Shown here one piece after another: positions 4,801 to 22,603 of a stretch of 64,000 nt of DNA (positions are counted from its first letter, which is position 1; each line of letters starts with the position of its first letter). This DNA comes from Isoptericola sp. AK164 (GTDB lineage Bacteria; Actinomycetota; Actinomycetes; Actinomycetales; Cellulomonadaceae). The position numbers and the translations under genes are program-made. The notes beneath the pieces were generated by a model. The model saw nothing but the letters and a program-made list of their open reading frames with translations. It ran no database searches and had not been told where the DNA came from. The stretch lies in NCBI RefSeq assembly GCF_029643425.1, contig NZ_CP119106.1, positions 3,348,001 to 3,412,000 of the forward strand. The letters are read 5' to 3'.

Positions 4801-5748
4801 GATACCGTTCGGGTGCGCCGCGTCGCCGGTGTACGCCACGGTCACCGCGTCGCCCTCGCGCGAGACGGTCCGCACGTCGTCGGACAGCCCGGTCACCCGC
4901 GGCGTCCCGTCGACCTTCAGCGTCACGTCGCCGGTCCACCGGGAGTCGTCGATGTCGAACGCCGGGTGGATGTCCGGGTTCATCGTGTAGTTGGTGCAGG
5001 TCGGGGTGTCGGCGTTGTTCTGCAGCGTGTAGAGACCGCCGGTCGCGGTGCTGACACCGACGTGGAAGCTGTCCGAGACCAGCCGCTCCTGGTCGTCGTC
5101 CGCGACGAACGCGTCCTCGTCACCGACGTGGGCCTCGAGCTCGCTGACGGCCACGGCGGCGTAGGAGGTGCCGTCGCCGGTCGCGTCGAAGGTCGCGCGC
5201 AGCGACGTCGTCGACACGGGAGCGGCGAGCTCGACGGAGTTCATCGCGTCCGGGGCGACGCCGTACTCGCTGCCCGCGGCCGGCTCGACGGGTTGCCACG
5301 CGCCCGACGCCTCGTCCCACGCCTCCAGCGTCCAGGCCGCGGGCACCGCGACCCCGTCGCCGGCGGTCGCGGACGGGTTGTCGTGCCAGAACGCCACGCC
5401 GACGGACGTCAGCGTCCGCGGCGTCTCCCAGTCGAGCTCCAGCCACTGCTGGGCGGGCCGGTCGCCGGAGTAGGTGCCCCAGATCTGGTCCTGGGACCCG
5501 TCGGTGTGCAGCACGGTGCCGTCGTTCACGGCGCGGACGTCGTTCCACGCCGCGGTGTACGAGGCCGTCGGCGTCGCGAGCACGGCCGCGTTCGTCGTCG
5601 GAGCCGGCGCCTGGTAGCAGGACGTGGCGTCGGAGGTCGTGGCGTCGGTGGCGGCGGCCGTCGCCGTCACGCCGACCACGCCTGCCGCAGCGGCCAGTGC
5701 GGCCGCCAGCGAAGCGGAGAGCATCCTCGCTCCCACCTGGTGTCTCAT
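1843..5748 (-). CDS. Secreted DUF5695-type putative glycosidase with discoidin-like and tandem CBM5/12-like modules
   Basis: 1301 aa from the ATG at 5748 (MRHQVGARM). A Sec signal peptide ends near residue 33. Residues about 50-190 form a discoidin/CBM32-like module (TASYTAAWNDVRAVNDG, WGTYSGDRPAQQWLELDW) of the type repeated in the GH43 and Ig-module genes nearby. The central ~900 residues (NSWWNGGDQTGIYEQNVG, HVWNTYYAMYRIASTYPG, GESWWNLGYETQLGAWQQQ) look like an all-helical toroid glycosidase and resemble proteins labelled DUF5695; I cannot name the catalytic residues. Residues 1206-1301 hold two chitin-binding-type CBM5/12 repeats with conserved WWT...EPG...W. The protein is probably an extracellular polysaccharide hydrolase; its substrate is not established. 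The ATG at 5724 is an alternative start but would shorten the basic end of the signal peptide. Confidence 0.8.
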   Translation of the reverse strand: MRHQVGARMLSASLAAALAAAAGVVGVTATAAATDATTSDATSCYQAPAPTTNAAVLATPTASYTAAWNDVRAVNDGTVLHTDGSQDQIWGTYSGDRPAQQWLELDWETPRTLTSVGVAFWHDNPSATAGDGVAVPAAWTLEAWDEASGAWQPVEPAAGSEYGVAPDAMNSVELAAPVSTTSLRATFDATGDGTSYAAVAVSELEAHVGDEDAFVADDDQERLVSDSFHVGVSTATGGLYTLQNNADTPTCTNYTMNPDIHPAFDIDDSRWTGDVTLKVDGTPRVTGLSDDVRTVSREGDAVTVAYTGDAAHPNGIRGFDLDETYTLTDGGSALDWSITLDNTSGESVEVQDLAVPMLMNSWWNGGDQTGIYEQNVGRHSFVAQDGSYVYWQRPNGVGPFLVMTPNPGTSLEFRDKARTGEGPFGENDPAWEGLVELAIHSESLQPTRQGKIEGYLPPSSLTLPAGEAQTYGFSFRWADGYADLRDVLYEAGVVDVVSLPGMVVPQDTAATLAVRARDGIDEVVGEDGRDVSISPTGERNGYETYAVEFADQGPHQVTVRYAGGRESVLQYNSVAPVEELVDARARFLVDHQQARDTGRGYEGAFLQWDMSRERQITWHDYPGGGWKQWMAGGSDDLGLSPAAFLSEKNLLDPDQEQVSALDYYLEEFIWGYMQTQTDADGERTYRIYHWYDGTDGSSPGTADGLATWRVMNYPHVWNTYYAMYRIASTYPGVETALSADEYLLRAFRTMRAYFTHPNVGTLDDASREMGSMGEMTMPEIVDALSAEDYTAEAEELEGYIATKADEMLQREYPFASEMSIDTTAFEATYTLAKRYGDDEMVDKVTRASMASRGLQPLWYYYGSDNRHMGESWWNLGYETQLGAWQQQDFLLTDDAADAGLDPDEVMRSTYGAYLAGWSNINTGQISEQPVNHGAASWQFQSQQGAGEGQWGFMPMLDGWWAWSGEADLGFWGGLRTASVNVVDDSVVGPYAYGGEMTHDGGTFTIVPRDGVRQRLAMYNLDRLHLELEGATYSEAQVADDASDLRLAVEAVAPGASARLTLGNLPAGDYRVTVDGGDPRTVVSDGDRAVVDLDGLSGEGVVTVVDATAPATATPQVSVAQPDCEAGTSGSIAGVPVDGVERYVLKEWVDGQAGGHVAAGEVGPGTYVVRAWPADGTELQADGDWEAIFRGRTQLIVEIDACGPVVPAWDAEVVYRAGDRVVLDGAVFEATWWTQDEEPGASAHGSWQEIAETADGDAVWTPSRIFHADDVVVHDGERYAARWWTRNAEPGTTPWGPWEPTG

Positions 5749-6367
5749 CAGGTCTCTCGCCCTTCGTGTCGGGTGAGGCCGGCGGGGCGTCGCCCGGCGC
5801 CGTCCTCCTCGGTGACAGCGACCGAAAAGGGGTGCGAAGCGTGGTGGCAGGATCCCGTCCTCCAGCACTCCGCCCGCGATGCCCGACCGGACGGTCTGAC
5901 ACATCTCGGCGCTGAGATACTGCTGATTCCCGAGAACCTTCACATGCGGCCACGTCTGAGGCAAGCGGTTTCGTTCGTTTCGGCGCTTTTCGTGCCCTCG
6001 ACGCCGGGTCGCCCTGGCGACCGGGCGCGTCGACGCGTCGGCACGGCACCTGCCGGACGACGGCACGCACCTGTCCCGGACCCACCCCGGGCGCCCGGTG
6101 GCGCCTCGGGCGACCGACGCGCCGGCGGCCCGGCGGCGGTGACCGGGCGATTCGCCCGAAATCCTGGTGCACTGGGACCGTAACCCGCCGAAACCCCTTT
6201 CACTATTCCCGGATCTGTGTGAGCATGACGGCTGAGCCCGCACGGCTCTCCGGAGGGGAAGGACACCGCGGTCCTGCCACGACCGGCCGACGACGGCACC
6301 TGGTGCGATCCCTCCTCCGGGGCCGGGCTCGACGGACCGCACCGGACGAATCGATGGAGAGAAGTCA
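5749..6367. promoter_or_regulatory. Divergent promoter region of the DUF5695-type and WxL-like genes
   Basis: This 619-nt stretch has no convincing gene; open frames here are GC-skew artefacts. A 16-bp near-palindrome, ATCTCGGCGCTGAGAT, sits at 5903-5918. A half-palindrome, GCCGAAACCCCTTTCAC, sits at 6187-6203, and further CGAAA-type half sites lie around 5822 and 5970-5995. These resemble the dyads at 560 and 8288 and probably mark sugar-responsive control. I see no confident -10/-35 pair. Confidence 0.45.
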
Positions 6368-6988
6368 ATGAACGCACGTGCAACGACGCAATGGTTCGCA
6401 GGCGCCACGATGGGTGTGCTGCTGGTGGCGACCGTGGGCGCCGGGACCGCAGCCGCCGAGGACGTGGACGACCAGGGGATCGACGTCTCGGTCGACATCA
6501 CCGACCAGGGCGGCGGCGAGCTGTCCATGACCGTCGCCGCCAACGAGGGGGTCGACCTCGTCGAGGAGGGCTCGGACGAGTCCGCCCGGCAGTTCGTGGG
6601 GACGACGCCGACCGTCACCGTGACCGACACCCGCGACCCCGCCGACATCCCCGAGGGCCACTACTGGGCCGTGCTCGGCCAGGCCGGCGAGTTCGTCGAC
6701 GCCACCGACGGGACGAAGACGATCGGGGCGGAGTACCTGGGCTGGACCCCGACGCTGCTGTCGGAGAGCTCCACGGGACTCGTCTCCGAGGGCGAGCCGG
6801 TGGACAGCGCCGTGGACGCCGGCCCCGGTCTGGCGGGCCAGGAGCTGCTCGTCTCGACCTGGGAGTCGGGCGCGGAGAGCGGGACGTGGGACGTCGCCGC
6901 GGACCTCGCGCTGCGCACCCCGACGGACGTCGAGGCCGGGTCGTACTCGTCCACCATCACCCTGACCCTCATGGAGCAGTCCTTCTGA
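6368..6988 (+). CDS. Secreted WxL-like surface protein
   Basis: 206 aa. The Sec signal peptide runs to about residue 28 (VGAGTAAAEDV). The mature protein is acidic and beta-rich (VDVSVDITDQGG-like start; strands such as TPTVTVTDTR, and EYLGWTPTLLSES, GTWDVAADLALRTPT, SSTITLTLMEQ toward the end). The YLGWTP and final ITLTL pattern, together with the DUF916-like protein encoded next, fits a WxL-type cell-wall-associated protein. In Firmicutes, WxL proteins bind peptidoglycan and form complexes with DUF916 partners. GGAGAG precedes the ATG. No LPXTG motif or C-terminal membrane segment is seen. The assignment rests on pattern and neighbour, not a strict WxL motif pair. Confidence 0.6.
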   Translation: MNARATTQWFAGATMGVLLVATVGAGTAAAEDVDDQGIDVSVDITDQGGGELSMTVAANEGVDLVEEGSDESARQFVGTTPTVTVTDTRDPADIPEGHYWAVLGQAGEFVDATDGTKTIGAEYLGWTPTLLSESSTGLVSEGEPVDSAVDAGPGLAGQELLVSTWESGAESGTWDVAADLALRTPTDVEAGSYSSTITLTLMEQSF

Positions 6989-7074: not shown

Positions 7075-8151
7075 ATGCCCCGGAGCATCGCGCGTCTCGC
7101 GGCCGGCGCGGGCACGGCCGCCCTGCTGGTCGCCGGCGTCCCGGGAACGGCCGGTGCGGCCGCGCCCGGACCGGCCGTGACCACGGCCGACACCGACACC
7201 ATCACCTGGTCGCTGACCCCCGCGGACGCCGAGGGCGCCGACGACCGGCGCCGCATCGCCCTGGAGCTGGAGCCCGGCGGATCGACGACCGAGCACGTCG
7301 CGCTGACGAACAGCAGCGCCACGAGCGTCACCTTCGACCTCTCCGCGGCGGACGGCTACCTCACCGCGAACGGCAGCTTCGACCTCCGGGCGGCCGACGT
7401 CGAACCCACCGGGGGCGGCGCCTGGATCGGACTCGAGGACGAGATCACCGTCGCCGCCGGCGAGACCAGCGTGATCCCCCTGACCGTGGCCGTCCCCGAG
7501 GACGCGGTGCCCGGCGACCACCCGGCGGGCGTGGCCGCCGCCGTCTCGACGAGCGACGGGCCGGTCACGGTCAGCAACCGCGTCGGCGTCCGCGTCGACG
7601 TCCACGTGCCCGGCGAGGTCTCCGCGGCGGTCGCCGTGGCGGACGTGACGGCGGCGCACGCCTCCTCCTGGAACCCGTTCGAGCCCGGCACCGTGGACGT
7701 GGAGGCCACCCTGACGGCCACCGGCAACGTCGCGGTCGCCGTCGACCGGGCGGCCGCGGCGAGCGGAGCGGCCGGGCTGGTCCCGCAGGCCCGCAGCGCC
7801 CCGACGACGCCGGTCGACCTCATCCCGGGCTCGAGCGTGCGCACCTCCGTCCAGGTCCCCCGGGTGTGGCCCCTGGGCCCCGTGTCCGTCGACCTGACGG
7901 TCACCCCCACCCCCGCGGACGGCGTCGACGCCGCCACGTCGCCGCAGACCGTCACCGTCACCGCCTGGGCGATCCCCTGGCCCCAGCTCCTCCTGGTCCT
8001 CCTCGCCGCGGCGACGGTCCTGGGGCTCCGCGCGGTGCGCGCCGCGCGCCGCGAGCGCCTGGACGCCCTGCTCGCCGCCGCCCGCGCCGAGGGCGCGGCG
8101 TCGGCCGCCCGCGACCGCGCGGAGCGGAGCCCGGTCGGCCCGCCCGGCTGA
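7075..8151 (+). CDS. DUF916-like membrane-anchored surface protein (WxL partner)
   Basis: 358 aa from the ATG at 7075, five bases after GGAGG; upstream in-frame starts lie in the neighbouring gene and hairpin. A signal peptide (GVPGTAGAAAPG) precedes an N-terminal beta domain (ITWSLTPADAEG, RRRIALELEPGGSTTEHVALTNSS shortened in part, GAWIGLEDEITVAAGETSVIPL) typical of the DUF916/WxL peptidoglycan-binding class. A second beta domain follows (SSWNPFEPGTVDVEATLTA). The C-terminus has one membrane segment around WAIPWPQLLLVLLAAATVL and a cytoplasmic basic tail. It probably anchors the preceding WxL-like protein to the envelope, close to the glycosidases encoded on either side. Confidence 0.7.
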   Translation: MPRSIARLAAGAGTAALLVAGVPGTAGAAAPGPAVTTADTDTITWSLTPADAEGADDRRRIALELEPGGSTTEHVALTNSSATSVTFDLSAADGYLTANGSFDLRAADVEPTGGGAWIGLEDEITVAAGETSVIPLTVAVPEDAVPGDHPAGVAAAVSTSDGPVTVSNRVGVRVDVHVPGEVSAAVAVADVTAAHASSWNPFEPGTVDVEATLTATGNVAVAVDRAAAASGAAGLVPQARSAPTTPVDLIPGSSVRTSVQVPRVWPLGPVSVDLTVTPTPADGVDAATSPQTVTVTAWAIPWPQLLLVLLAAATVLGLRAVRAARRERLDALLAAARAEGAASAARDRAERSPVGPPG

Positions 8152-8287: not shown

Positions 8288-8339
8288 GGTGCCGAAAACA
8301 CCGAAAGCCATTGCAGGCTTTCGGCACCGGTGCTTGACT
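8288..8339 (+). promoter_or_regulatory. Nested operator palindromes and -35 box before the MGH1-like gene
   Basis: CCGAAAGCC (8301-8309), six bases, then GGCTTTCGG (8316-8324) is a perfect inverted repeat. An outer pair, GGTGCCGAAA (8288-8297) and TTTCGGCACC (8319-8328), nests around it. TTGACT at 8334-8339 is a good -35 box immediately downstream; the -10 is unclear. The half-site matches the dyad at 560-577, so the same LacI regulator may act here. Confidence 0.6.
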
Positions 8340-11400: not shown

Positions 11401-13159
11401 CGGCGGCTGGACCAGCGTGCCGGACACGTACAAGGCGCCGAAGATCCCGGGGCCGAAGTTCAACGAGGCCCTGTTCCCGACCGTCACGACGGACCGTGTC
11501 CGGGTGGCGTTCACGAACACCCCGGACCGCTGGACCGCGATCTCCGAGATCCAGGTCTTCGACTCCGGGCGGGACGTCCCCGCGGTCGTCAACGACGCAC
11601 CCGTCGTCACGGCCTCGGCCGACCTGACCCAGGACGGCAACCTGTCCACGAGCCTCGTGGGCACCGTCGTCGACGACGGGCTGCCCGAGGGCGGCGAGCT
11701 CACCCAGGCGTGGTCCGTGGCCTCCACCCCGGAGGGCGCCACCGCCATCGTCAGCGACCCGGACGCCCTGACCACGACCGTCACCGGGACCGTCGAGGGC
11801 ACCTACGTCTTCCGCCTCACCGCGGACGACGGCGAGCTGACCACGGAGCGGGACGTCGAGGTCGAGCTGACGGCGAAGGAGGCCTCCGCCGAGTTCGGGG
11901 CGGCCGCGTCGATCTCGACCAGCGGCTCGGCGTCGTGGGAGAACCCCTCCCTCGTCAACGACCCGAGCACGCCCTCGAGCTCGGGCCCCGGCGCGGGCAA
12001 CGGCTGGGGCACCTGGGGCCAGCCGAACAACGGTTCCAGCGAGTCGAACGCGGCGTGGATCCAGTACGCCTGGGACTCGCCGGTCCTGGTCGCCTCGACC
12101 GAGATCTACTGGTACGACGACCAGGGCGGCACGCGCATGCCACAGGCGGACGCGTACACGGTCGAGCACAGCCAGGACGGCGAGAGCTGGACGCCGGTCA
12201 CCCTGACCGGCGACTCGTCCTACGCCGACGCCCTGCAGCGCGACACGTACAACCGGCTCGAGTTCGAGCCGGTCGAGGCGAGCCACCTGCGGATCCGCAT
12301 CACCGGCATCCAGGGCGGTGCCGGCGGGACCGGCGTGCTGCGCTGGCGCGTCAACGGGGACACCGTCGACGAGCTGGCCAGCCCGGTGATCATGCGCACG
12401 GTCACGGGGACCGTGCCGACCCTGCCGACGTCGCTCGACGTCGTCTACTCCACCGGTCAGCGCGGCACCGTCGACTTCACCTGGCAGGAGATCACGCCGG
12501 ACATGGTCGCCGAGACCAACGTGGACCCGTTCACCGTCTACGGCTCGAACACCACGTACGGACTGATCGCCGAGGCCCAGATCTACGTGCGGCCCGAGGA
12601 CTCCCCGGGCGGCATCTCGATCCAGGGCGCGGAGCAGTTCAGCGAGACCGTGGAGGTCGGCGAGGAGCCCTGGCTGCCCACCACGGTCCAGGTCTCGTAC
12701 AACGACGGCTCGCGCGACAACCAGGCGATCGGCGTCGAGTGGGACTACGACCCGTCGGTGGTGGAGACGCCCGGCGTGTACGAGATCCACGGTGACCTGG
12801 TGCTCCCGGAGTACGTCGGCACGGCCGGCACCACGACGACGACCCTGACGCTCACGGTCGGCGACGGTCAGCCGACCGGACCGGAGGTGTCCGTCACGAC
12901 GCAGACGCGCTGCCTCGGCGGGAAGGTCTACCTCGCGGTGCGGGCCACGAACGACGACGACGCGGCGCTCGCCGTCACGATCGACACGCCGTTCGGGTCG
13001 AAGGAGTTCGCCGACGTCGAGCCGGGCAAGAACGCCTACCGGGCGTTCCCGGCCCGCGCGGCGTCGATCGACGCCGGCGAGGCGACCGTGGTCGCGACGG
13101 ACGCCGAGGGCGCCTCGTCGACGGTCACGAGCGCCTACGAGGCCGCGAGCTGCGGCTGA
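8459..13159 (+). CDS. Large secreted MGH1/GH63-like glycoside hydrolase with discoidin, Ig and C-terminal two-Cys modules
   Basis: 1566 aa from the ATG at 8459, preceded by GGAGAGG. The signal peptide is cleaved near VVPAAA-DDH (residue 30). Residues about 35-320 are a beta-sandwich; about 335-790 form an (alpha/alpha)6 catalytic domain (EKAIVYRWWGERYNVLDTN, YQYPTTVEGSNLYQNSVALT, GNMNYIYVEDMGG) like the MGH1/GH63 clan. Then come a discoidin module (about 890-1045), a PKD/Ig-like domain (about 1045-1145), a second discoidin-like module (about 1150-1310), two bacterial Ig Big_4-type repeats, and from about 1476 a terminal module starting at TRCLGG and ending in C, also found in the genes at 13267 and 18767. 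It probably acts outside the cell on a complex plant glycan; the exact linkage is unknown. Confidence 0.85.
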   Translation: MSARRRSRLVACATTGALALTGLGVVPAAADDHVVPGNESDVGVYTDGTTDSMDIGDPTYAGVAETTAALEPGVPWTAGSMHQSIFDQDLAAGGTDYYLDRVLGVSGTANNGVLQTRGRSLYLRGNSSWGVMGFAGDAHAGGPNNLGDFYRVTVPGEDVSEVGAERFNAPSHAKARYTVGSTGVTADLKKFITYDNVAVSAVTFTNDGDSDATFTVRATSPVATGTGEAADELTGRHTLTSGANNGLVDTPWSTVTVDLKAAGFERSGANLEREITVPAGGSVDLSVVGALYSASMPDTRPSLEDYAVLEPAEAFRQGVTEFNRRWAQDIPYIDVPSDPIEKAIVYRWWGERYNVLDTNEPGYVYQYPTTVEGSNLYQNSVALTQPMHLQDTKWIRNPYLGYGQVLNIGELSGSSAFLDSPGHTSWNNHYSQYLGTAGLEAFNVHGGGADVAERFASYFEWDGVGQLEHYDGNDDKLIAYDTNYMPGNDADAISFGYPKDGTGEPGAWTIERPESAYVWGDFDAARQLYEMAGADAAKVQEMGDTADQIRDAILGRLWSDEMRMFLAGTSHGATSAGSQNPLSEAERDLIPAKESNLYDIYAQNLIPTDQAEQYVDGFRFLRYGDNFPIFPFYTANQYDKDKFGIGGSNNFSNINFTVQYRAVRSALRHYDPEGKYITPEYAARLLDWMAWSVYPDGDTRIPNQSEYYANWNPDTQSYSRVNPNHVMLGNMNYIYVEDMGGIQPRSDDKIELWPIDLGYDHFMVNNLRYHGHDLTIVWDPDGSHYGLGEGYSLFVDGERKAAADGLGRFVYDPAAHEVVESDDGLTVAVDGTEGADLPAAVDTPIEDERVVSYLKTAGIDATEDAPDLATDAVLSSSATQDGPRPTPWREFHTPGTGSMNYTPGAISATERPVSLDAVTDGVTANEPYWGNYGTEGDTGYVELDLGEPTSFDNVKVWFVSDRQDGGYHEPSRYSIQVPDGDGGWTSVPDTYKAPKIPGPKFNEALFPTVTTDRVRVAFTNTPDRWTAISEIQVFDSGRDVPAVVNDAPVVTASADLTQDGNLSTSLVGTVVDDGLPEGGELTQAWSVASTPEGATAIVSDPDALTTTVTGTVEGTYVFRLTADDGELTTERDVEVELTAKEASAEFGAAASISTSGSASWENPSLVNDPSTPSSSGPGAGNGWGTWGQPNNGSSESNAAWIQYAWDSPVLVASTEIYWYDDQGGTRMPQADAYTVEHSQDGESWTPVTLTGDSSYADALQRDTYNRLEFEPVEASHLRIRITGIQGGAGGTGVLRWRVNGDTVDELASPVIMRTVTGTVPTLPTSLDVVYSTGQRGTVDFTWQEITPDMVAETNVDPFTVYGSNTTYGLIAEAQIYVRPEDSPGGISIQGAEQFSETVEVGEEPWLPTTVQVSYNDGSRDNQAIGVEWDYDPSVVETPGVYEIHGDLVLPEYVGTAGTTTTTLTLTVGDGQPTGPEVSVTTQTRCLGGKVYLAVRATNDDDAALAVTIDTPFGSKEFADVEPGKNAYRAFPARAASIDAGEATVVATDAEGASSTVTSAYEAASCG

Positions 13160-13175
13160 CCGGAGGTGCCGTCGC

Positions 13176-13221
13176 AGCGGCGGTGACGTCCCGGGCCCCG
13201 GCCCGGCGCGTCACCGCCGCT
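13176..13221 (+). terminator. Hairpin terminator after the MGH1-like gene
   Basis: A 13-bp perfect stem (13176-13188 with 13209-13221) surrounds a 20-nt loop that can itself fold on CCGGGC/GCCCGG. It lies just after the stop codon at 13159 and before the GH43 ribosome site. Confidence 0.7.
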
Positions 13222-13266
13222 CGCCGGCCGCGCCCCCGGGCGCGGCCCTGATCCCAGGAGAGAAGC

Positions 13267-16200
13267 ATGTTCCCTCGCAGCAGGAGCAGGACCCGGTCCG
13301 CCGTGCTCGTCGGGGTGCTGGCACCGACCCTCGCGCTGGGCGCGACCGTCGGAACGCTCGCCCCGGCGGCCGCCGCCGACCCGTACACCGTCACGTCCAC
13401 CGAGAACCCGATCCTCGCCGACGGCAGCTACTACTCGGCCGACCCCGCCCCCCTGGTGGTCCCCGCGGGCGCCCCGGGGAACGACACCGCGCAGGACCAG
13501 CTCTTCGTCTACACGGGCCACGACGAGGCGGGCCCGACGCAGAACGACTTCATCATGAACGAGTGGGGGGCGTTCCGGACGACGGACGTCGACGCCGGGG
13601 AGTGGACCCACCACCCGTCCCTCATGCGCCCGGAGGAGGTCTTCGACTGGGCGACGCCGGGCCGCGCCTACGCCGGCCAGGTCGTCCAGGGCGTCGACCA
13701 GCGCTACTACTGGTACGTCCCCGTGGCCGAGCGGGACACCACCGCGTCCGACGCCTTCGGCATCGGCGTGGCCGTGTCCGACTCGCCGACCGGGCCGTGG
13801 ACCGACCACGTCGGCGGCCCGCTCATCTCCCAGCGCGTGCCGGAACCGAACACGATCCACAACATCGACCCGACCGTCCTCGTCGACGGCGAGGGCACCG
13901 ACGCCCGCGTCTACGTCTGGTGGGGCAGCTTCGGCACGCTGCGCATGCTCGAGCTCGAGCAGGACATGCGCACGCCCGTCGGTGACATCCAGGCGGTCTC
14001 GGGGCTCGAGGGCTTCTTCGAGGCGGCGTGGGCCTTCGAGCGCGAGGGCACCTACTACCTGGCGTACGCCGGGAACAACGCCGGGCCGACGTCGTCGTGC
14101 ACCCCCGCGACCTACCACGCGTGCATCGCCTACGCGACGGCCTCCTCGCCCCAGGGCCCGTGGACCTCCCGCGGCAGGATCCTGGCGCCGGTGTCGTCGA
14201 CGACGAGCCACCCCGGCATCCTGGAGTTCGACGGCGAGTGGTGGATCGCCTACCACACGGCCGACGCCGAGGGCGGCAACCACTTCCGCCGCTCGGTGGC
14301 GATCGACCGCGTCGAGTGGGACGACACCCAGTCGCCGCCCCGGATGGAGCCGGTCGTCACGACGCCTGCGGCGGAGCGCGACACGACTCCACGGGCGAAC
14401 GTCGCGCACGAGGCCACGGTCCGCGTCTCCAACGAGCCCGTCCCGACGCAGTACTGGACGAAGGCGCTCAACGACGAGCTCGTGCGGCCGAACCCCCTGC
14501 CCCCGGACATGTGGGGGACGTACACCGGGGACAACCCGCCGCAGCAGTGGGTGCAGTACACCTGGGACCAGCCGATGCGGCTGGCCGGGTCCCGGATCGA
14601 CTTCTGGAACGACCAGCCCCGGGGCACCGGCATCGGCGTGGCGGCACCCGACGCGTGGCACATCGAGTACTGGGACGCCGACGCCGGCGGCTGGGCCGAG
14701 GTCCCGGACGCCGACGGCTACGGCACCGGGACCGACGGGTTCCAGGACACGACCTTCGACCCCGTGACGACCACGCAGGTACGGGCGGTCCTGGACGCCT
14801 CGACCGACGGCAGCACGTACTCCGCGGTCGCGGTCGAGGAGTGGGAGGTGCACGCCGAGCAGCCCGTGTCGGTCGGCACGCCCGACCTGACCGTCGAGGT
14901 CGGCGAGACCGCCCTGCCGGGGACGGTCCCGCTCACCTTCGCCGACGGGGAGACGCTCGACCTCCCCGCCTGGTGGGACGACGTGACGGCCGAGGACGTC
15001 GCCGTCCCCGGCACGTTCGCCGTCGAGGGGTCGGTGCTCGGGTACGCCGGAGGCCGGGTCGGCGCGGACGTGACCGTGATCCCGGCCGAGGCACCGGCGG
15101 ACGACGACACCGCCCCCGACGTCGCGCTCACCCCGCTCGGCAGCGCCGGCGCCGAGGGCTGGTTCCGCTCCGACGTGCGCGTACGCGTCGACGGCACCGA
15201 CGACTCCGGCGGGCGCGTGGTGCTGACCACGGCGGTCGACGACGCCGAGCCCGTGGTCACGAACCACGTCCGGTCCACCGAGGTCGACGTCAGCGGCGAG
15301 GGCGCCCACCGCGTCGTCGCCACCGCGACCGACCGCGCGGGCAACGTCTCGGCCGAGCAGTCGCTCGACGTCCAGATCGACAGCGTCTCCCCGGAGGCCT
15401 CCGGCGAGCTGGACGCCGCGGCACGGACCGTCACGGTCACGGCGAGCGACGAGACCTCGGGCGTGGCGCGCGTGGAGTTCGCCGTCGGCACGGGCGAGTG
15501 GCAGGTCTACGACGGTCCGGTCGCCGCCCCCGACACGGGGCAGCACCGGGTGTCGTTCCGGGCCGTCGACACCGCCGGGAACGTCGGGACCCCGCGGTCC
15601 GTGACGATCCCCGCCGACGTCTCCGGGCCGCTCAGCGGCAACGTCGGGCCGATCGCGACGGTGTCGACGTCGTACACGGCGGGCTGGAACAGCGTCGACG
15701 CCCTCCACGACGACGCCGACCCGTCGAACCCGAGCCAGGCGCAGCTCTGGGGCACCTGGTCGGGCGACCGCCCGTCGTCGCAGTGGGTGCAGTACGAGTG
15801 GTCACGTCCGATCCGGCTCACCGGCACGGAGCTGAAGTTCTGGCAGGACTCCCCCGCCGGCACCGGTGACGGCGTCGCCGCGCCGGACTCCTGGTCGGTG
15901 GAGTACTGGGACGACGCGGCCGAGGAGTGGGCGCCCGTGACCGGCGCGGACCCCTACGACGTGAGCACGACGGAGTTCACCACCGTGGGCTTCGACCCGG
16001 TGACGACGTCCCGGCTGCGGGCCACGTTCCAGGCGAACGGCGACGGCAGCACGTACTCGGCCGTCGCCGTCACCGAGTGGCGCGTTCTCGCCGACGACCC
16101 GGGTGTCGACGGGTCGGAGCCCGACCTCGACGTCACGGCGACGGTGAGCACCCGCTGCCTCGGCGGCCGGGCCTACCTCGCGGTGCGGGCGCTGAACGAG

Positions 16201-16413
16201 GACGCGGTCCCGGCGGACCTCACCCTCACGACGCCGTTCGGCACCCGGACGGTCGAGGACGTGGCCCCGGGCGAGAACGCCTACCAGGCGTTCCCCACGC
16301 GGTCCGTCTCCGCCGCGGCGGGGTCCGTGACCGTGTCCGCGACGGGCGTCGTCGACGGCGAGGAGGTGAGCTCCGAGCAGACGGTCGAGCACGACGCGAT
16401 CGACTGCTCCTGA
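13267..16413 (+). CDS. Secreted GH43-family glycosidase with two discoidin-like modules
   Basis: 1048 aa; AGGAGA precedes the ATG. The signal peptide ends near TLAPAAAA-DPY. The five-bladed propeller domain (about 45-370) shows the three GH43 acids: D59 in YYSADPAP, D201 in NIDPTVL and E252 in GFFEAAWAF. GH43 enzymes are mostly alpha-L-arabinofuranosidases, xylosidases or exo-galactanases. A first discoidin-like module lies at about 378-535 (WGTYTGDNPPQQWVQYTW), Ig-like domains at about 540-790, and a second module at about 795-950 (WGTWSGDRPSSQWVQYEW). The last ~90 residues are the TRCLGG...C module shared with the genes at 8459 and 18767. The GH127-like neighbour suggests an arabinofuranoside substrate. 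Confidence 0.88.
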   Translation: MFPRSRSRTRSAVLVGVLAPTLALGATVGTLAPAAAADPYTVTSTENPILADGSYYSADPAPLVVPAGAPGNDTAQDQLFVYTGHDEAGPTQNDFIMNEWGAFRTTDVDAGEWTHHPSLMRPEEVFDWATPGRAYAGQVVQGVDQRYYWYVPVAERDTTASDAFGIGVAVSDSPTGPWTDHVGGPLISQRVPEPNTIHNIDPTVLVDGEGTDARVYVWWGSFGTLRMLELEQDMRTPVGDIQAVSGLEGFFEAAWAFEREGTYYLAYAGNNAGPTSSCTPATYHACIAYATASSPQGPWTSRGRILAPVSSTTSHPGILEFDGEWWIAYHTADAEGGNHFRRSVAIDRVEWDDTQSPPRMEPVVTTPAAERDTTPRANVAHEATVRVSNEPVPTQYWTKALNDELVRPNPLPPDMWGTYTGDNPPQQWVQYTWDQPMRLAGSRIDFWNDQPRGTGIGVAAPDAWHIEYWDADAGGWAEVPDADGYGTGTDGFQDTTFDPVTTTQVRAVLDASTDGSTYSAVAVEEWEVHAEQPVSVGTPDLTVEVGETALPGTVPLTFADGETLDLPAWWDDVTAEDVAVPGTFAVEGSVLGYAGGRVGADVTVIPAEAPADDDTAPDVALTPLGSAGAEGWFRSDVRVRVDGTDDSGGRVVLTTAVDDAEPVVTNHVRSTEVDVSGEGAHRVVATATDRAGNVSAEQSLDVQIDSVSPEASGELDAAARTVTVTASDETSGVARVEFAVGTGEWQVYDGPVAAPDTGQHRVSFRAVDTAGNVGTPRSVTIPADVSGPLSGNVGPIATVSTSYTAGWNSVDALHDDADPSNPSQAQLWGTWSGDRPSSQWVQYEWSRPIRLTGTELKFWQDSPAGTGDGVAAPDSWSVEYWDDAAEEWAPVTGADPYDVSTTEFTTVGFDPVTTSRLRATFQANGDGSTYSAVAVTEWRVLADDPGVDGSEPDLDVTATVSTRCLGGRAYLAVRALNEDAVPADLTLTTPFGTRTVEDVAPGENAYQAFPTRSVSAAAGSVTVSATGVVDGEEVSSEQTVEHDAIDCS

Positions 16414-16427
16414 CGAGGGCAGACCGT

Positions 16428-16477
16428 CCCGGGGTCGCCGGGGGAGGACGACGTCGTCCTCCCCCGGCGACCCCGGG
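16428..16477. terminator. Perfect 50-bp palindrome, probable terminator
   Basis: Bases 16428-16452 are exactly the reverse complement of 16453-16477, with no spacer, 14 nt after the GH43 stop codon. As RNA it forms a very stable hairpin. It separates the GH43 gene from the GH127-type gene, so the latter may have its own promoter or be expressed by read-through. Confidence 0.75.
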
Positions 16478-16523
16478 CACGACACCACGGCTCGACGACG
16501 AGTACCCGAGGAGTCCACCCACC

Positions 16524-18770
16524 ATGCCTGACCCGACCTACTCACGGCGGTCCGTCCTGCGCCTCGGCGCGATGGCCGCCGGCGCCACGGCCGGTGCCGT
16601 CGCGCTCGCCGGCAGCGGGACCGCCGTCGCGACCGCGCCTCCCGTCCGCGCCTTCGCCCCGGCGGCACCTCCGGTGAGCCGCGGCTTCCTGCGGTCCCTG
16701 GACCGCACCGTCACCTTCGACGGCTGGACGGCCCGGCCGTTCGCGATGGCCGACGTCGACCTCGCCCCCAGCATCGCCACCCGGTCCCAGGACCAGATGC
16801 TGCACCTGGCGCGCGTGTACCCCGTCGACCGGGTGCTCGCCGTCTTCCGCCGCAACGCGGGCCTCGACGACCGCGGGGCGGCCCCGCCCGGCGGGTGGGA
16901 GGGCTTCGGGCACCCGAACGAGGACGCCTGGGGCCCGGACGACTACCCCGGCCGGGAGAACACCCAGACCGCGAACCTGCTGCGCGGCCACTACGGCGGA
17001 CACTTCCTGTCGATGGTGGCCCTGGCCTGGGCGAGCACCGGCGAGCAGGTCTTCGCCGACAAGGTCGACGCGATCGTCACGGGCCTCGGCGAGGTCCAGG
17101 CGGCGCTGGCCGAGACCGGCCGGTACTCCCACCCCGGATTCCTCGCCGCGTACGGCGAGTGGCAGTTCAGCCGGCTCGAGGAGTACGCGCCCTACGGCGA
17201 GATCTGGGCGCCCTACTACACCTGCCACAAGATCCTCGCGGGGCTGCTGGAGGCGTACTCCCTCACCGGCAACGACCAGGCCCTCGAGATCGCCACCTCG
17301 ATGGCGCACTGGGTCCACGGCCGGCTGTCGGTGCTCCCGCGCGCGCAGCTCGACCGGATGTGGGGTCTCTACATCGCCGGCGAGTACGGCGGCATGAACG
17401 AGTCCCTGGCCGACCTGGCCGCGATCACCGGGGACGACACCCACCTGGCGTCCGCGCGGTGCTTCGACCTGACGCGGCTCGTCGACGCCTGCGCCGCCGG
17501 CGACGACGTCCTCGACGGGCTGCACGCCAACCAGCACATCCCGCAGTTCCCCGGCTATCTCAAGCTCCACGACCTCACGGGCGAGCAGCGCTACCTCGAC
17601 GCGGTCGAGGGTTTCTGGGACATGGTCGTCCCGGGCCGGACCTACGCCCACGGCGGCGACGGGGAGAGCGAGCACTGGGGCCCGCCGGACACGGTCGCCG
17701 GGGACATCGGTCCCCGCAACGCCGAGACCTGCGCCACCTACAACATGCTCAAGCTGTCGCGGCTGCTGTTCTTCCACACCCTCGACCCCCGATACATGGA
17801 GTACTACGAGCGCGGCGTCCTCAACCAGATCGTGGGGTCGAAGAAGAACGTGCAGTCCGACACCTCGCCGGAGGTGACCTACATGTACCCGGTCGACCCC
17901 GGGACGTGGCGCGAGTACGGCAACACCGGGACCTGCTGCGGCGGCACGGGCCTCGAGAACCACGTGAAGTACCGCGACTCGGTGTACTTCCGCACCACCT
18001 CCGGCGACGCCGTCTACGTCAACCTCTTCCTCGCGTCCACGCTCGAGTGGCCCGAGCGTGGCGTCACGATCGTCCAGGAGACGACCTACCCGCTCGAGGG
18101 CTCCAGCCGCCTCACCGTGCAGGGCAGCGGACCGCTCGACCTGCGGCTCCGGGTCCCCGGCTGGGTGCGCCGGGGCTTCACGGTCGCGGTCAACGGCGTC
18201 GACCAGCAGGTGGACGCGACCCCCGGGACGTACGTCAGCGTGTCCCGGGACTGGTCGCCGGGCGACGTCGTGGACGTCACGATGCCGCTGAGCATCCGTG
18301 CGGTGCCCACGATCGACAACCCGGTGATCCAGAGCATCGAGAACGGCCCCACCGTGCTGGTGGCACGCAGCTCGTCGCGCGAGTTCCTCCGGCTCTCCCT
18401 CTACCCGCACATGGCGCTGGACGGGACGCTCGACGGCGCCTTCACCGACCTGGGCGACGGGTACCGCCGGCTCGGGGACCTCACCTTCGAGCCGGCGTGG
18501 TCCGGCGACGACACGCAGTACCACCTGTACGTCGAGCGGTCCGAGCCGCGCGTCGTGTTCGCGGGCCGCGACAGCCGGGTGGCGAACCCGGTCCGCGCCG
18601 ACGGCACGTCGTTCCTCGACGCGGTCTGGGCCGACGGCGGGTTCGCCGACCGCGCCGCGTTCCTGCGCACGGTGCAGAGCACCGTCGAGCAGTTCTCCGC
18701 CGACGGGCTCCTCAGCCGTCGCGACGGTCAACGGATCCTGGTCACGGCGGGGAAGGCGAGGTTCGCATGA
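16524..18770 (+). CDS. Tat-exported GH127/GH146-type beta-L-arabinofuranosidase
   Basis: 748 aa from the ATG at 16524. The N-terminus has a twin-arginine signal (YSRRSVLRLGA), so the folded, metal-loaded enzyme is likely exported by Tat. The toroid domain carries the GH127/GH146 signature: E401 and C403 in NAETCATYN, and C471-C472 in GTCCGGTG. In characterised relatives such as bifidobacterial HypBA1 the equivalent Glu and three Cys bind zinc and one Cys is the nucleophile. The reaction is release of beta-L-arabinofuranose from plant glycans. The 3' end overlaps the next gene by ATGA, so the two are translationally coupled. Unlike bifidobacterial GH127, this protein is secreted. Confidence 0.9.
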   Translation: MPDPTYSRRSVLRLGAMAAGATAGAVALAGSGTAVATAPPVRAFAPAAPPVSRGFLRSLDRTVTFDGWTARPFAMADVDLAPSIATRSQDQMLHLARVYPVDRVLAVFRRNAGLDDRGAAPPGGWEGFGHPNEDAWGPDDYPGRENTQTANLLRGHYGGHFLSMVALAWASTGEQVFADKVDAIVTGLGEVQAALAETGRYSHPGFLAAYGEWQFSRLEEYAPYGEIWAPYYTCHKILAGLLEAYSLTGNDQALEIATSMAHWVHGRLSVLPRAQLDRMWGLYIAGEYGGMNESLADLAAITGDDTHLASARCFDLTRLVDACAAGDDVLDGLHANQHIPQFPGYLKLHDLTGEQRYLDAVEGFWDMVVPGRTYAHGGDGESEHWGPPDTVAGDIGPRNAETCATYNMLKLSRLLFFHTLDPRYMEYYERGVLNQIVGSKKNVQSDTSPEVTYMYPVDPGTWREYGNTGTCCGGTGLENHVKYRDSVYFRTTSGDAVYVNLFLASTLEWPERGVTIVQETTYPLEGSSRLTVQGSGPLDLRLRVPGWVRRGFTVAVNGVDQQVDATPGTYVSVSRDWSPGDVVDVTMPLSIRAVPTIDNPVIQSIENGPTVLVARSSSREFLRLSLYPHMALDGTLDGAFTDLGDGYRRLGDLTFEPAWSGDDTQYHLYVERSEPRVVFAGRDSRVANPVRADGTSFLDAVWADGGFADRAAFLRTVQSTVEQFSADGLLSRRDGQRILVTAGKARFA

Positions 18771-20767
18771 GCACGCACGGCGACGACACGGTCCTCGTCC
18801 CGCTCGGCGCCCGGGAGCGCCACGTCCCCGACGGCTCGCGGCAGCGGCGGATCCTCGCCGGCGCCACCGCCCTGGCCCTCGCGGTCGCGGGCGCGGGCGC
18901 GGCCCTGTGGACGGCCGGTACGGGCGGCGGCACGGCCCCGGCCGTGGCGGCGGCCGCGGAGGACGCCCCCGCGAACGTGGCGCTGGTCGGCACGCCGGAG
19001 GCCAGCTACACGGCACCGTGGCACCGCCTCGACGCCGTCCACGACGGCGAGGTGGCGCCGACCGGCACCTGGGAGCAGGCCTGGTCGACGTGGAGCGGGG
19101 AACGCCCCGCCTCCCACTGGCTGGAGTACTCGTGGCCGGTGCCGGTGACGGTCGACCGGTCGGTGATGTCCTTCTGGACGGACGGGACCGGCGCGAACGG
19201 CGACAACGTCCGGGTGCCGTCGTCGTGGTCGATCCAGTACTGGGACGCCGACGCCGAGCAGTTCGTCGACGTCGCGAGCCCCAGCGGGTTCGGTCTCGAG
19301 CGCACCACCCCGAACGAGACGACCTTCGACCCGGTCACCACGACCCGCGTCCGGGCGAACCTCGACGCCCTGCAGGGCACCGACGTCGACTCCTACTCGG
19401 CCGTGGGCGTCACCGAGTGGGAGCTCTGGGGCACCGGTGGCACGGAGGAGCCCGACCCGGTCGACCCGCACGGGCCGATCGACCACGAGCCGGTGCACGT
19501 GCCCACCGACGTGGGCGTGCTGCCCGAGCTGCCCGCCGACCTCGACGCCGTCTACACCGACGGCCGGGTCGAGACCGTCGAGGTGAGGTGGGAGGAGGTC
19601 ACGGCCGAGGACGTGGCCGAGCCCGGGTCGTTCGCCGTCGCGGGCACCTCCCCGGAGCTCGTCGCCCCGGTCGAGGGCACGGTCCACGTGCGCGACGGCG
19701 AGCCCGGCGACGTCGTCGCCGTCGACTACGTCAGCGTCGTCACGCTCGCGGGCACCGCACCGGTCCTGCCCGGCACCGTGGTCGCCGAGTACGCGGACGG
19801 GACGCGGGACAGCAGCGTCCCGGTGACGTGGGACGCCGTCGACCCGGCCGACCACGCGGAGGCCGGAACCCTGTTCTTCGTCACCGGCGATGTCACCGGG
19901 ACGGACGTCGACGCCGAGGCCACCGTGTTCGTGGTGGCCCCGGACGACGGCGAGGACACCGTCGCCCCGACGGTGACCGTGTCCGCCGAGCCGGGCCCGG
20001 CGACGTCGGGCTGGTTCCTCAGCAGCCCGACGGTCACCGTCACGGCCACCGACGACCGCGATCCCTCCCCCGCGGTCGAGGTCGCGGTCGACGGCGGGGA
20101 CTGGACCCCCGACGACGGGCCGTTCGTGCTCGAGGACGACGGCGAGCACACCGTGGCCGTCCGCGCCACGGACGCCGCGGGCAACGTGGGCGAGGGGTCT
20201 CGCACCCTCCGGGTCGACACCACCGCCCCGGCGACCACGGCGACGGTGCGCGATCTCGGCACGAGCGTCGAGGTCACCCTCGCCGCGACGGACGCCGGGT
20301 CCGGTGTGGACCGGATCCAGTGGGAGGGTCCCGGCACGTTCTGGGGCACGTACACCGAACCGTTCACCCGGGCGCTGACCGACACCGAGCAGGTCCTCGA
20401 GTTCGCGGCGACCGACGTCGCGGGCAACGTCGAGGAGCGGGGTCAGGTCGTGCTCCCGGCGCTCGACGCCGGGGACCGTCCGGCCGTCGAGGCGACGGTG
20501 CAGCAGCGCTGCCTGGGCGGCCGCGGCTACGTGGCGGTGCGGGCGCAGCACGCCGAGGAGGTCCCGGTCTCGCTCACCGTGGACACCCCCTACGGGTCCC
20601 GGACGGTCGAGGACGTCGAGCCGGGCAGGAGCGTCTACCGGGCCTTCCCGGCACGCACCGGGTCCGTCCCGGCCGGCGAGGCGACCGTGACGGGTACCGC
20701 CACGATCGACGGCGAGGAGGTGTCCGCCACCGAGCGCGTCGCCTACGACGCGTTCGACTGCGGCTGA
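18767..20767 (+). CDS. Membrane-anchored non-catalytic protein of discoidin-like, Ig and two-Cys modules
   Basis: 666 aa from the ATG at 18767, overlapping the GH127-type stop codon. The first 28 residues are hydrophilic, followed by a hydrophobic segment at about 29-50 (ILAGATALALAVAGAGAALW), so it is probably an uncleaved anchor with the rest outside. Residues about 66-230 form the discoidin-like module (WSTWSGERPASHWLEYSW), then two Big_4-type Ig repeats (about 250-395), two Ig-like domains with DAAGN and DVAGN ends (about 400-570) and the terminal module from QRCLGG to a final C. I see no catalytic domain. It may hold or present the polysaccharide substrate for the co-translated GH127-type enzyme. 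Confidence 0.8.
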   Translation: MSTHGDDTVLVPLGARERHVPDGSRQRRILAGATALALAVAGAGAALWTAGTGGGTAPAVAAAAEDAPANVALVGTPEASYTAPWHRLDAVHDGEVAPTGTWEQAWSTWSGERPASHWLEYSWPVPVTVDRSVMSFWTDGTGANGDNVRVPSSWSIQYWDADAEQFVDVASPSGFGLERTTPNETTFDPVTTTRVRANLDALQGTDVDSYSAVGVTEWELWGTGGTEEPDPVDPHGPIDHEPVHVPTDVGVLPELPADLDAVYTDGRVETVEVRWEEVTAEDVAEPGSFAVAGTSPELVAPVEGTVHVRDGEPGDVVAVDYVSVVTLAGTAPVLPGTVVAEYADGTRDSSVPVTWDAVDPADHAEAGTLFFVTGDVTGTDVDAEATVFVVAPDDGEDTVAPTVTVSAEPGPATSGWFLSSPTVTVTATDDRDPSPAVEVAVDGGDWTPDDGPFVLEDDGEHTVAVRATDAAGNVGEGSRTLRVDTTAPATTATVRDLGTSVEVTLAATDAGSGVDRIQWEGPGTFWGTYTEPFTRALTDTEQVLEFAATDVAGNVEERGQVVLPALDAGDRPAVEATVQQRCLGGRGYVAVRAQHAEEVPVSLTVDTPYGSRTVEDVEPGRSVYRAFPARTGSVPAGEATVTGTATIDGEEVSATERVAYDAFDCG

Positions 20768-20866: not shown

Positions 20867-22114
20867 TCAGTCGAGCGGGTCGCGCACGATCGGGCACGTC
20901 ATGCAGTGCCCGCCGCCGCGCCCGCGCCCGAGCTCGGCACCGACGATCTCGATCACCTCGACCCCGGCGTTCCGCAGGGCGGCGTTCGTCTGGGTGTTGC
21001 GGTCGTAGGTGAACACCACGCCCGGCTCGACGGCGACGGCGTTGTTGCCGGAGTCCCACTGCTGACGCTCGGAGGCGTACACGTCGCCGGCGGTCTCCAC
21101 GACCCGCAGGCGAGGCAGGCCCATCGCCTCCGCGACGACGTCGACGAAGGACTTGCCCCGGGCGTCGACCACCTCGACACCGGGCGACCGGTCGCTCGGG
21201 TAGAGCACGTAGGGGTGGATGCCGTCGACGATCCGCGGGTGGACGGTCACCAGGTCGCGGTCGGCGAAGGTGAACACGGTGTCCAGGTGCATCGCCGCCC
21301 GCAGCCGCGGCATGCCGGCCACCACCACCTGCTGCGCGGCACCGGCGTCGAACAGCGCCTTGGCGAGCTGGCTGATGGCCTGGCGCGAGGTGCGCTCGCT
21401 CATCCCCACGAGCACGACGCCGCCGCCGACCGGCATGACGTCGCCGCCCTCCAGGGAGGCCTGGGCCCAGTCGACCTCCGGGTCGCCCCACCACACCGTC
21501 GCGTCGCCGTAGTCGGGGTGGAAGGCGTAGACCGCCTTCATCAGCAGCGTCTCCTCCTTGCGCGCCGGCCAGTACAGCGGGTTGAGCGTGAGGCCCCCGT
21601 AGATCCAGCACGTGGTGTCCCGGGTGTAGAGCGTGTTGGGCAGCGGCGGGAGCAGATACTCGCGGGCGTCCGGCGACTCGTGGGCCAGGGACACGTAGCC
21701 GGTGCGGTAGTCGTCGGGCAGGTCGGCGGTGGACAGCCCGCCGACGAGGTACCGGGACAGCTCTGCCGGCGCCAGCCCGTCCAGGTAGGCCCGCGCGGGT
21801 TCCACGAGCCCCAGGCCGACCCGGTTCGGGACCACCTTGCGGTCCAGCAGCCACGAGCGGGCCTGCGGGTCCGCCATCGTCTGCGCGAGCAGGTCGTGCA
21901 GCTCGACGACCTCCACCCCGCGGACGGTCAGCTCGTCGACGAAGTCGGCGTGGTCGCGCTGGGCGGCCTCCACCCACATGACGTCGTCGAACAGCAGGTC
22001 GTCGGAGTTGCTGGGCGTCAGCCGCTCGTGCGCCAGGCCTGGCCGGCAGACCAGGACCTTGCGGAGCCGACCCACCTCCGAGTGCACGCCGAGGGTCGGC
22101 GTCAGGTCTGTCAC
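20867..22114 (-). CDS. arcA: Arginine deiminase
   Basis: 415 aa from a GTG at 22114, eight bases after GGAGGAG. The family hydrolyses L-arginine to citrulline and ammonia. Seen in the sequence: the N-terminal [19 protein letters not shown], the substrate-binding region [10 protein letters not shown], and the C-terminal nucleophile motif GGGHCMTCP. Length matches the family (about 400-420 aa). No arcB, arcC or arginine-ornithine antiporter gene is adjacent, so it may serve acid or nitrogen homeostasis rather than a full deiminase pathway here. The gene is divergent from the DUF1304 gene. Confidence 0.95.
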
Positions 22115-22198
22115 GGTTCGCTCTCCTCCATGGGTGGCCCGGCGCGTCTGGCACGATCGTGGCAGCACCGTCCCACCCTCGCCCCTCGAGGAGCACCG

Positions 22199-22603
22199 AT
22201 GATCGCTGCCGGACTCGTCCTGGCCGCCCTGGCCGCGGCCCTGCACATCTACATCTTCTGGCTGGAGTCGTTCGCCTGGACGACCCGCGCGCGGGCGGTC
22301 TTCGGCACGACGGCGGAGCAGGCGGCGGCGACCCGCGAGCTCGCGTTCAACCAGGGTTTCTACAACCTGTTCCTCGCGATCATCGCCGTCGCCGGCATCG
22401 TCCTGACGCTGCTGACCGGGCCGTTCGACAGCCCGCGGCCGGACATTGCCGGCGCCTCGCTTATCCTGGCAGGCACGGGCGCGATGCTGGCCGCCGCTCT
22501 CGTGCTGCTCGCCTCGTCCCTCCGCCGGTGGCGTGCCGCCGTAGCGCAGGGCACGCTGCCGCTGCTCGCCGTCGTGACGGTCACCGCGACACTCGTGCCC
22601 TGA
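22199..22603 (+). CDS. DUF1304 family membrane protein
   Basis: 134 aa from the ATG at 22199, after GAGGAG. Four hydrophobic segments can be seen ([73 protein letters not shown]). The [12 protein letters not shown] and [12 protein letters not shown] motifs are characteristic of the DUF1304 family, whose function is unknown. The last 23 nt overlap the 3' end of the metal ABC permease gene on the other strand. Confidence 0.88.

Follow-up and report, generated by a model that had tools for sequence, protein, structure and literature searches.

A C-terminal module of secreted enzymes with a genetic link to a WxL-like/DUF916 gene pair in Isoptericola sp. AK164 and other actinobacteria, and its possible role as a docking tail

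Background

In Firmicutes, small WxL proteins, large WxL proteins and a protein of DUF916-DUF3324-transmembrane layout form surface clusters, in which DUF916 is predicted to bind WxL (PMC10599100 and PMC9772566, in the parts of the texts available), and four Csc proteins were proposed by Siezen (2006) to act as surface complexes for plant-sugar use (PMC1534035, in the part available). Since the available part of PMC9772566 places more than 91%, and not all, of 938 WxL sequences in Firmicutes, some WxL proteins from other phyla are already known. Here we describe a ~95-residue module at the end of three adjacent genes in a stretch of 64,000 nucleotides from Isoptericola sp. AK164 (NZ_CP119106.1, positions 3,348,001 to 3,412,000; the whole stretch is called the window below), together with two nearby genes, one for a short secreted WxL-like (CscB-like) protein and one for a DUF916/WxLIP-like (CscA-like) protein. 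The module and this gene pair are genetically linked. Our preferred reading, to which we give somewhat better than even chances, is that the module is a docking tail that binds a Csc/WxL-type surface platform.

The locus resembles the Csc/WxL clusters (CscA-D) in that a DUF916 protein with a C-terminal transmembrane helix and a short WxL-type secreted protein are encoded in one cluster, and in that large secreted proteins with variable N-termini have a common C-terminal domain. It differs from them in that the large proteins end in a predicted Ig-like module (no WxL domain was found in the three window hosts), in that many of the large proteins are catalytic (up to ~57 per genome), and in that the short protein has W-x-V and L-[ST]-L and not two W-x-L motifs. 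As a functional analogy, the dockerin-cohesin pairs of the cellulosome also combine one surface receptor with many enzymes that have a common small C-terminal tag; however, the dockerin fold is a duplicated calcium-loop helix segment, whereas the module is predicted to be an all-beta sandwich. No description of the module, of its pairing with WxL-like and DUF916 genes, or of an actinobacterial WxL-like platform was found among the records listed in searches of the open-access literature, and the available part of PMC10167667 contained nothing on the module. We regard the proposed docking domain itself and its gene context as new, and the system as a variant of the Csc/WxL surface complexes.

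Results

Association of the module with the gene pair

The three genes, designated here by their start positions (8459, 13267 and 18767), share the module at their C-termini, as an initial annotation made from the window sequence had proposed, with its last codons directly abutting the stop. The copies are 49-54% identical in the multiple alignment, and BLASTP gave 52% identity (E 9e-34) and 49% identity (E 1e-28) for two of the copy pairs. The three copies show no variation in RCLGG, Y-x-A-V-R-A, T-P-x-G, D-V-x-P-G or the final Cys, and one Cys is located near either end of the module. The DUF916 gene precedes gene 8459 by 308 bases.

In the family set (150 genomes), the own-genome profile of the module was matched in 70 genomes (E<=1e-5), and the short type was assigned at E<1e-38 (next match, 2.1e-33). 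Both were present in 38 genomes, the short protein only in 0, the module only in 32 and neither in 80 (Fisher test, 1.6e-16), so that all 38 short-protein genomes carry the module. The corresponding numbers for PF06030, the Pfam model matched by the DUF916 gene, were 51, 20, 19 and 60 (p 5e-9), whereas genomes having only the long WxL-like type described below showed no association with the module (15/21/55/59, p 0.57). Within genera, the short-protein genomes held more modules in five of the six genera that varied (e.g. 4-6 versus 0-1 in genus g7; module counts in this set are at least 34 where the count reaches 34), and none of 20,000 within-genus shuffles reached the observed value (48 genomes with a genus code). 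A module open reading frame (ORF) was located within 1.5 kb in 15 of 35 short-type loci versus 0 of 16 long-type loci, this control being small because only 7 of the 16 come from module genomes; a DUF916 ORF was present in 32/35 and 15/16 loci, respectively. In the phylum set (396 genomes; the best 12 or best 8 candidates per genome, with misses possible), the short type was found in four genomes, all of them among the six with the module.

The gene order module gene(s), short WxL-like gene and DUF916 gene on one strand was found in Micromonospora, Herbidospora, Nonomuraea, Microbispora and Dactylosporangium, and the pair is upstream of the module genes in Jiangella and in the window; besides the window, the pair is near module genes in six named genera. 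Among 79 contig loci (from the best 80 of 124, and skewed towards the variant of the window), the short protein was present in all loci of Jiangella (1/1), Herbidospora (1/1), Micromonospora (5/5), Dactylosporangium (1/1) and Nonomuraea (2/2) and in 12/27 loci of Microbispora, several of which end inside the short protein; the DUF916 gene was also in view in 1, 1, 3, 1, 2 and 1 of these loci, respectively. The short protein was found in none of the two Oerskovia loci, the one Acrocarpospora locus and the one Sphaerisporangium-titled locus. DUF916 proteins beside module genes were first seen in two plasmid records, and the pair also adjoins module genes in f5 (another family, same order) and on a Cellulosimicrobium plasmid. 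On plasmid pCCh of Clavibacter phaseoli (L320), a module-bearing protein adjoins a GH43 gene and is near a DUF916 gene.

The short WxL-like protein and the DUF916 protein

The PF06030 domain at window positions 7261-7533 is the only match to this model in the source genome at E<=0.001, with a score of 27.9 bits against the cut-off of 27.3 in the genome search and of 24.5 bits, under the cut-off, within the longer ORF. DUF3324 was not among the Pfam matches of the window DUF916 ORF. A transmembrane helix in the C-terminal part was found in 31 of the 32 DUF916 ORFs beside the short type, including that of the window. The 26 short-type members gave no Pfam WxL match at E<=1; all 26 have a W-x-V close to the middle of the protein, and their terminal strands are T-[LI]-x-x-[LF]-like, with L-[ST]-L replacing W-x-L. 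Because the Pfam match is absent and these motifs stand in for the two W-x-L motifs, the short protein is WxL-like but falls outside the strict WxL definition. The long relatives bear the domain C-terminally on phosphatases, a GDPD and other proteins, and half of the ten examined weakly matched PF13731 (WxL), with scores below the cut-off (best E 2.9e-4). In other Actinomycetota (L384, L395, L398, L386 and others), DUF916 genes are adjoined by genes for long proteins whose C-terminal domain is WxL-like (phosphatases, GDPD, HtaA domain). The long proteins apparently represent a separate WxL-like surface system that is not tied to the module.

Sequence family, predicted fold and evolution of the module

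The three window copies matched no Pfam or NCBIfam model at E<=1, and 133 relatives gave only weak matches (best E 0.0017 for Pfam and 4.8e-4 for NCBIfam), including DUF4232 in 19 (best E 0.0021), CARDB in 2 (0.0024) and Big-like in 1 (0.0044). Neither CBM_2 nor dockerin was among the 25 of 40 Pfam families listed for these relatives at E<=0.1, and CBM_2 gave no match to the window copies at E<=1. The AlphaFold2 model (133 sequences) has seven strands, with a predicted local distance difference test (pLDDT) score of 97.0, and the predicted fold is an Ig-like beta sandwich. Foldseek against the Protein Data Bank (PDB) gave no match at E<=0.001, the top-ranking ones being designed Ig domains and portions of larger proteins that form beta sandwiches. 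In a sequence search against solved structures, parts of de novo designed Ig proteins were matched (best E 9.4e-8), and all other matches had E values of 0.35 or above. The module has no convincing counterpart among the families of Pfam, NCBIfam or the natural proteins of the PDB.

Among 262 distinct copies, both Cys were present in 248, neither in 12 and only one in 2 (i.e. kept or lost together in 260/262); after thinning at 75% identity, the numbers were 135, 7 and 1, and we read this single one-Cys copy as a frame-shifted reading. The covariation of the Cys pair across the copies is good evidence that a disulfide joins the two terminal Cys. Cytoplasmic hosts were ruled out as the cause of the Cys loss, since both Cys-less hosts examined have signal-like stretches. 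The disulfide-closed domain supposed in the initial annotation is thus supported by the present data. In the alignment, Tyr18, Arg22, Asn25, Arg42, Tyr54, Gln55 and Arg60 are strongly conserved, not necessarily as core residues, and there is no mostly-Trp column.

Module identity was compared among 230 copies (copies short of host sequence or genus label were excluded). The mean identity was 0.692 for the same genus and homologous hosts (474 pairs), 0.546 for the same genus and unrelated hosts (7250 pairs), 0.482 for different genera and homologous hosts (829 pairs), and 0.454 for different genera and unrelated hosts (17,782 pairs). On the module tree, the genus changed 44 times versus 108.6 after shuffling, and the host cluster 119 times versus 181.8 (63 host clusters). 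Where hosts from different genera were at least 60% identical, the module was less conserved than the host in 215/220 pairs (means, 54.4 versus 71.3); these pairs are non-independent and include the contig L098. This record is titled Sphaerisporangium cinnabarinum and is probably misnamed, its hosts being 89-97% identical to Cellulosimicrobium proteins. Genus outweighs host in the module sequence, though the host counts too. Because the sequence tracks genus more than host, the data suit a tag that is subject to shared selection or homogenisation within each genus better than a domain adapted to its individual host.

Distribution and hosts

The source genome had eight matches to the three-copy profile at E<=10, of which the weakest (E 0.04) is an internal copy in a sigma-factor-fused protein. 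In the genus set, 16 of 18 genomes matched the own-genome profile (E<=0.001), three apparently via the sigma-factor protein alone. With 70/150 genomes in the family set and 6/396 in the phylum set, the distribution is patchy within actinobacteria, which agrees with the restricted phylogeny expected at the outset. Three genomes of the richest genus (g8, probably Cellulosimicrobium) had 58, 51 and 63 matches (best 150 of 161-196 candidates each).

In the single-contig genome G064, 57 of the 58 distinct module ORFs end in the module (match 0-17 residues from the stop); the remaining ORF encodes a long protein in which several copies are internal and which resembles the sigma-factor fusion L013 of the source genome. 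When all loci were combined, 315 distinct matches lay in ORFs with a visible stop (ORFs running off the 3' end of the locus were excluded), and 299 of them end within 12 residues of the stop. Two of the remaining 16 lie 24 residues inside and 14 deeper; 13 of these 14 are in proteins that resemble the L013 fusion by sequence, and one (L033) is not. The earlier claim that the module is C-terminal on diverse secreted proteins is supported by these data, although the internal copies in the sigma-factor-fused proteins partly go against it. In L013 (6413-10561, minus strand), Pfam, which was run for this fusion alone, found sigma-70-type (extracytoplasmic function (ECF)-like) regions 2 and 4 and a zinc finger, fused to a long stretch rich in alanine and glycine. 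Like the ECF52 sigma factor layout with extracytoplasmic domains (PMC5826349, in the part available), L013 carries extracytoplasmic module relatives; these are internal and more divergent, unlike the C-terminal modules of the window hosts. By frame length and sequence, L013-like proteins seem to be the sole match in three genus relatives. The sigma-factor link was set aside as a functional clue, since such proteins seem to be present in genomes without C-terminal modules.

The 58 ORFs of G064 were scanned with Pfam in two sets of 29; among the first 25 families listed for each set were GH92, GH43, GH97, GH76, GH95, GH127, PL8, amylase and ThuA/GSDH, and in addition there were hosts that do not act on polysaccharides, with domains of M28 peptidase, asparaginase, 5'-nucleotidase, metallophosphatase and exo/endonuclease type. 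Ten of the 58 already carry CBM_6. By a simple rule, a signal-like stretch was found in 52 of 56 hosts (the fusion protein and one truncated ORF were excluded), and a lipobox or an internal transmembrane segment in none of the 56.

Genes of the window

The features of the locus are listed in Table 1. The best profile for gene 8459 was that of the beta-L-arabinobiosidase HypBA2 (E 1.3e-170, 569.9 bits, under the 3200-bit cut-off of the family), and the description of this enzyme as MGH1-like in the initial annotation has to be replaced; its GH43 assignment of gene 13267 was correct, and no catalytic Pfam domain was found in gene 18767, which it listed as non-catalytic. The GH127 gene lies between the second and third module genes and overlaps gene 18767 by 4 bases. 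The same two ORFs are present in relatives, in different frames, and the possibility that they are one frameshifted gene was thus ruled out. Plant beta-arabino-oligosaccharides are the substrates of HypBA2 and GH127 enzymes, and the locus therefore resembles a cluster for extensin sugars. Related module-bearing hosts are present in Cellulosimicrobium, Jiangella, Micromonospora and Herbidospora.

Table 1. Coordinates of the features of the module locus in the window
Feature	Position	Strand	Remarks
Short secreted WxL-like protein (CscB-like), 206 aa	6368..6988	+	Proposed docking partner
DUF916/WxLIP-like protein (CscA-like), 358 aa	7075..8151	+	C-terminal transmembrane helix and basic tail
Perfect inverted repeat CCGAAAGC(N8)GCTTTCGG	8301..8324		135 bases upstream of gene 8459; putative operator
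Secreted HypBA2-like protein, 1566 aa	8459..13159	+	F5/8-type and Big_4 domains, module at end; Pfam, NCBIfam
Module copy 1	12881..13156	+	Gene 8459; alignment, BLASTP
Secreted GH43 protein, 1048 aa	13267..16413	+	Module at end; Pfam
Module copy 2	16123..16410	+	Gene 13267; alignment, BLASTP
GH127 protein	16524..18770	+	Tat-like signal (by eye), without module; Pfam
Secreted protein with Big_4, Big_13, OmpL47-type and weak F5/8-like domains	18767..20767	+	Module at end; Pfam
Module copy 3	20477..20764	+	Gene 18767; alignment, AlphaFold2 (pLDDT 97)

The inverted repeat is a possible operator of the sugar cluster, as judged from its sequence and position. The search pattern CCGAAAGC-N8-GCTTTCGG, which was derived from the site itself, occurs at no other place in the window at <=3 mismatches, and at least one site was found in 24 of 100 shuffles at that looseness. 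Adjoining the cluster, a DUF5695 protein (1843-6648, minus strand) ends in two CBM5/12 stretches, not in the module; downstream, the gene at 20867-22246 (minus strand) is arginine-deiminase family-like by eye.

Discussion

In the docking mechanism that we propose, the secreted enzymes and accessory proteins would be exported and then fold, and the disulfide between the terminal Cys would close the C-terminal Ig-like sandwich. The module would then bind, non-covalently, a platform of the short WxL-like protein and the DUF916 (WxLIP-like) protein with its C-terminal membrane helix, taking the place of the C-terminal WxL domain found in the CscC proteins of Firmicutes. The one or two gene pairs of a genome would be shared by anything between a few and several dozen proteins; G064 has two short-type genes, one of which is directly behind a module gene, and these would have to serve more than 50 module proteins, mostly in trans. 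In the window, the platform would hold the HypBA2-like, GH43 and accessory proteins for plant beta-arabino-oligosaccharides at the cell. The specific gene partnership supports the docking or anchoring role suggested in the initial annotation; the docking itself, that is, binding of the module to the short protein or to the DUF916 protein by which the enzymes would be kept at the cell, is what we infer.

Several observations weigh against this proposal. In Cellulosimicrobium, in which the module is commonest, none of 38 contig loci (flanks up to 8 kb) holds the pair, and the platform must therefore act mostly in trans. The short protein is absent from 32 of the 70 module genomes of the family set (1-4 copies each, 20 of them with one), in which the module may have another partner or a second role; genus g20, one of the six compared, shows no real difference; and three of the four short-type genomes of the phylum set are in one family. 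Sequences near modules were the main source of the short-type profile, ORF length was also used in separating the short from the long type, and the counted genomes are related, kinship inflating all values except, partly, the within-genus test. Homologous hosts raise the module identity within a genus (to 0.692), so that host descent matters too, and co-evolution of the module with the short protein beyond that of the hosts gave mirror-tree partial r values of 0.08 and 0.69 (6 taxa, 15 pairs per host, two hosts). In addition, seven of eight CBM2 domains of the same genome are likewise C-terminal, and six of these seven have Cys at both ends (RicinB_lectin_2, with mixed positions, was not used as a control). 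The C-terminal position was thus ruled out as proof of sorting, and position alone proves nothing, because CBM2 shares both the C-terminal place and the Cys at either end.

The CBM2 comparison also speaks for the likeliest of the alternatives, which we nevertheless consider unlikely, namely that the module is a new carbohydrate-binding module (CBM) that binds the substrates of its hosts, or directly a glycan of the wall or exopolysaccharide, without the WxL-like pair. Like CBM2, the module is ~100 residues long; glycosidases are numerous among its hosts, the conservation of Tyr18, Arg22, Tyr54, Gln55 and Arg60 seems to exceed what the core of a sandwich requires, and internal copies are present in the sigma-factor fusion resembling ECF52, whose studied member has a putative CBM. 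CBM2 binds sugar through surface Trp residues, however, and the module differs from it in having no conserved Trp (the alignment has no mostly-Trp column), in its broad host range and in the absence of CBM_2 among the families listed. A peptidase, a nucleotidase, phosphatases and an asparaginase are among the hosts, and some hosts already carry CBM6, CBM4_9, CBM35 or F5/8 domains; moreover, a CBM would leave unexplained the gene partnership, and the tracking of genus above host also speaks against it.

The same two observations, together with the conserved polar and aromatic residues, would be unexpected if the module were a passive, partnerless C-terminal cap against exoproteases, a reading less probable again, even though the disulfide would clamp both ends of a compact sandwich at the extreme C-terminus, the Ig-like fold is generic, and 32 module genomes are without the short protein. 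The strictly C-terminal position on many unrelated hosts would agree with a sorting signal that a dedicated enzyme recognises and cleaves, as happens in sortase and type IX systems, but such a signal is highly improbable in our judgement: the three window proteins terminate in the module, as do 57/58 in G064, without LPXTG, hydrophobic stretch and basic tail, and the domain is compact and disulfide-closed up to its last residue. Sortases, to which the search for processing enzymes was confined, are present at 1-3 per genome in all seven genomes tested, and the suggestion that the module stands in place of LPXTG signals is not supported for this reason.

The docking proposal might be extended, with a slim chance of being right, to a fibre, in which the short protein would be a pilin-like subunit polymerising by donor-strand exchange, the DUF916 protein a membrane-held chaperone or base, and the fibre a scaffold for the module-docked enzymes. 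Of the six PDB matches of the short-protein model at E<=0.001, one is a glycosidase and five are fimbrial proteins of CFA/I, the latter with E 2.1e-4 to 8.3e-4, modest template-modelling scores of 0.40-0.47 and root-mean-square deviations of 5-12; the mean pLDDT of the model is 80.5. Its N-terminal stretch, unordered in the model (pLDDT <50), contains an alternating V/I/L strand in 26/26 members. Such a fibre, if real, would be a fibre-borne array of dozens of enzymes in monoderm bacteria.

If the docking proposal is correct, certain soil actinomycetes would display many of their exported enzymes on a protein platform instead of simply releasing them, by means of a domain without a name in any of the libraries searched, and dozens of unnamed C-terminal tails per genome would gain a function. 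The WxL/DUF916 surface complexes would then reach Actinomycetes in an altered form, and a small C-terminal tag would be available for the display of enzymes on Gram-positive cells.

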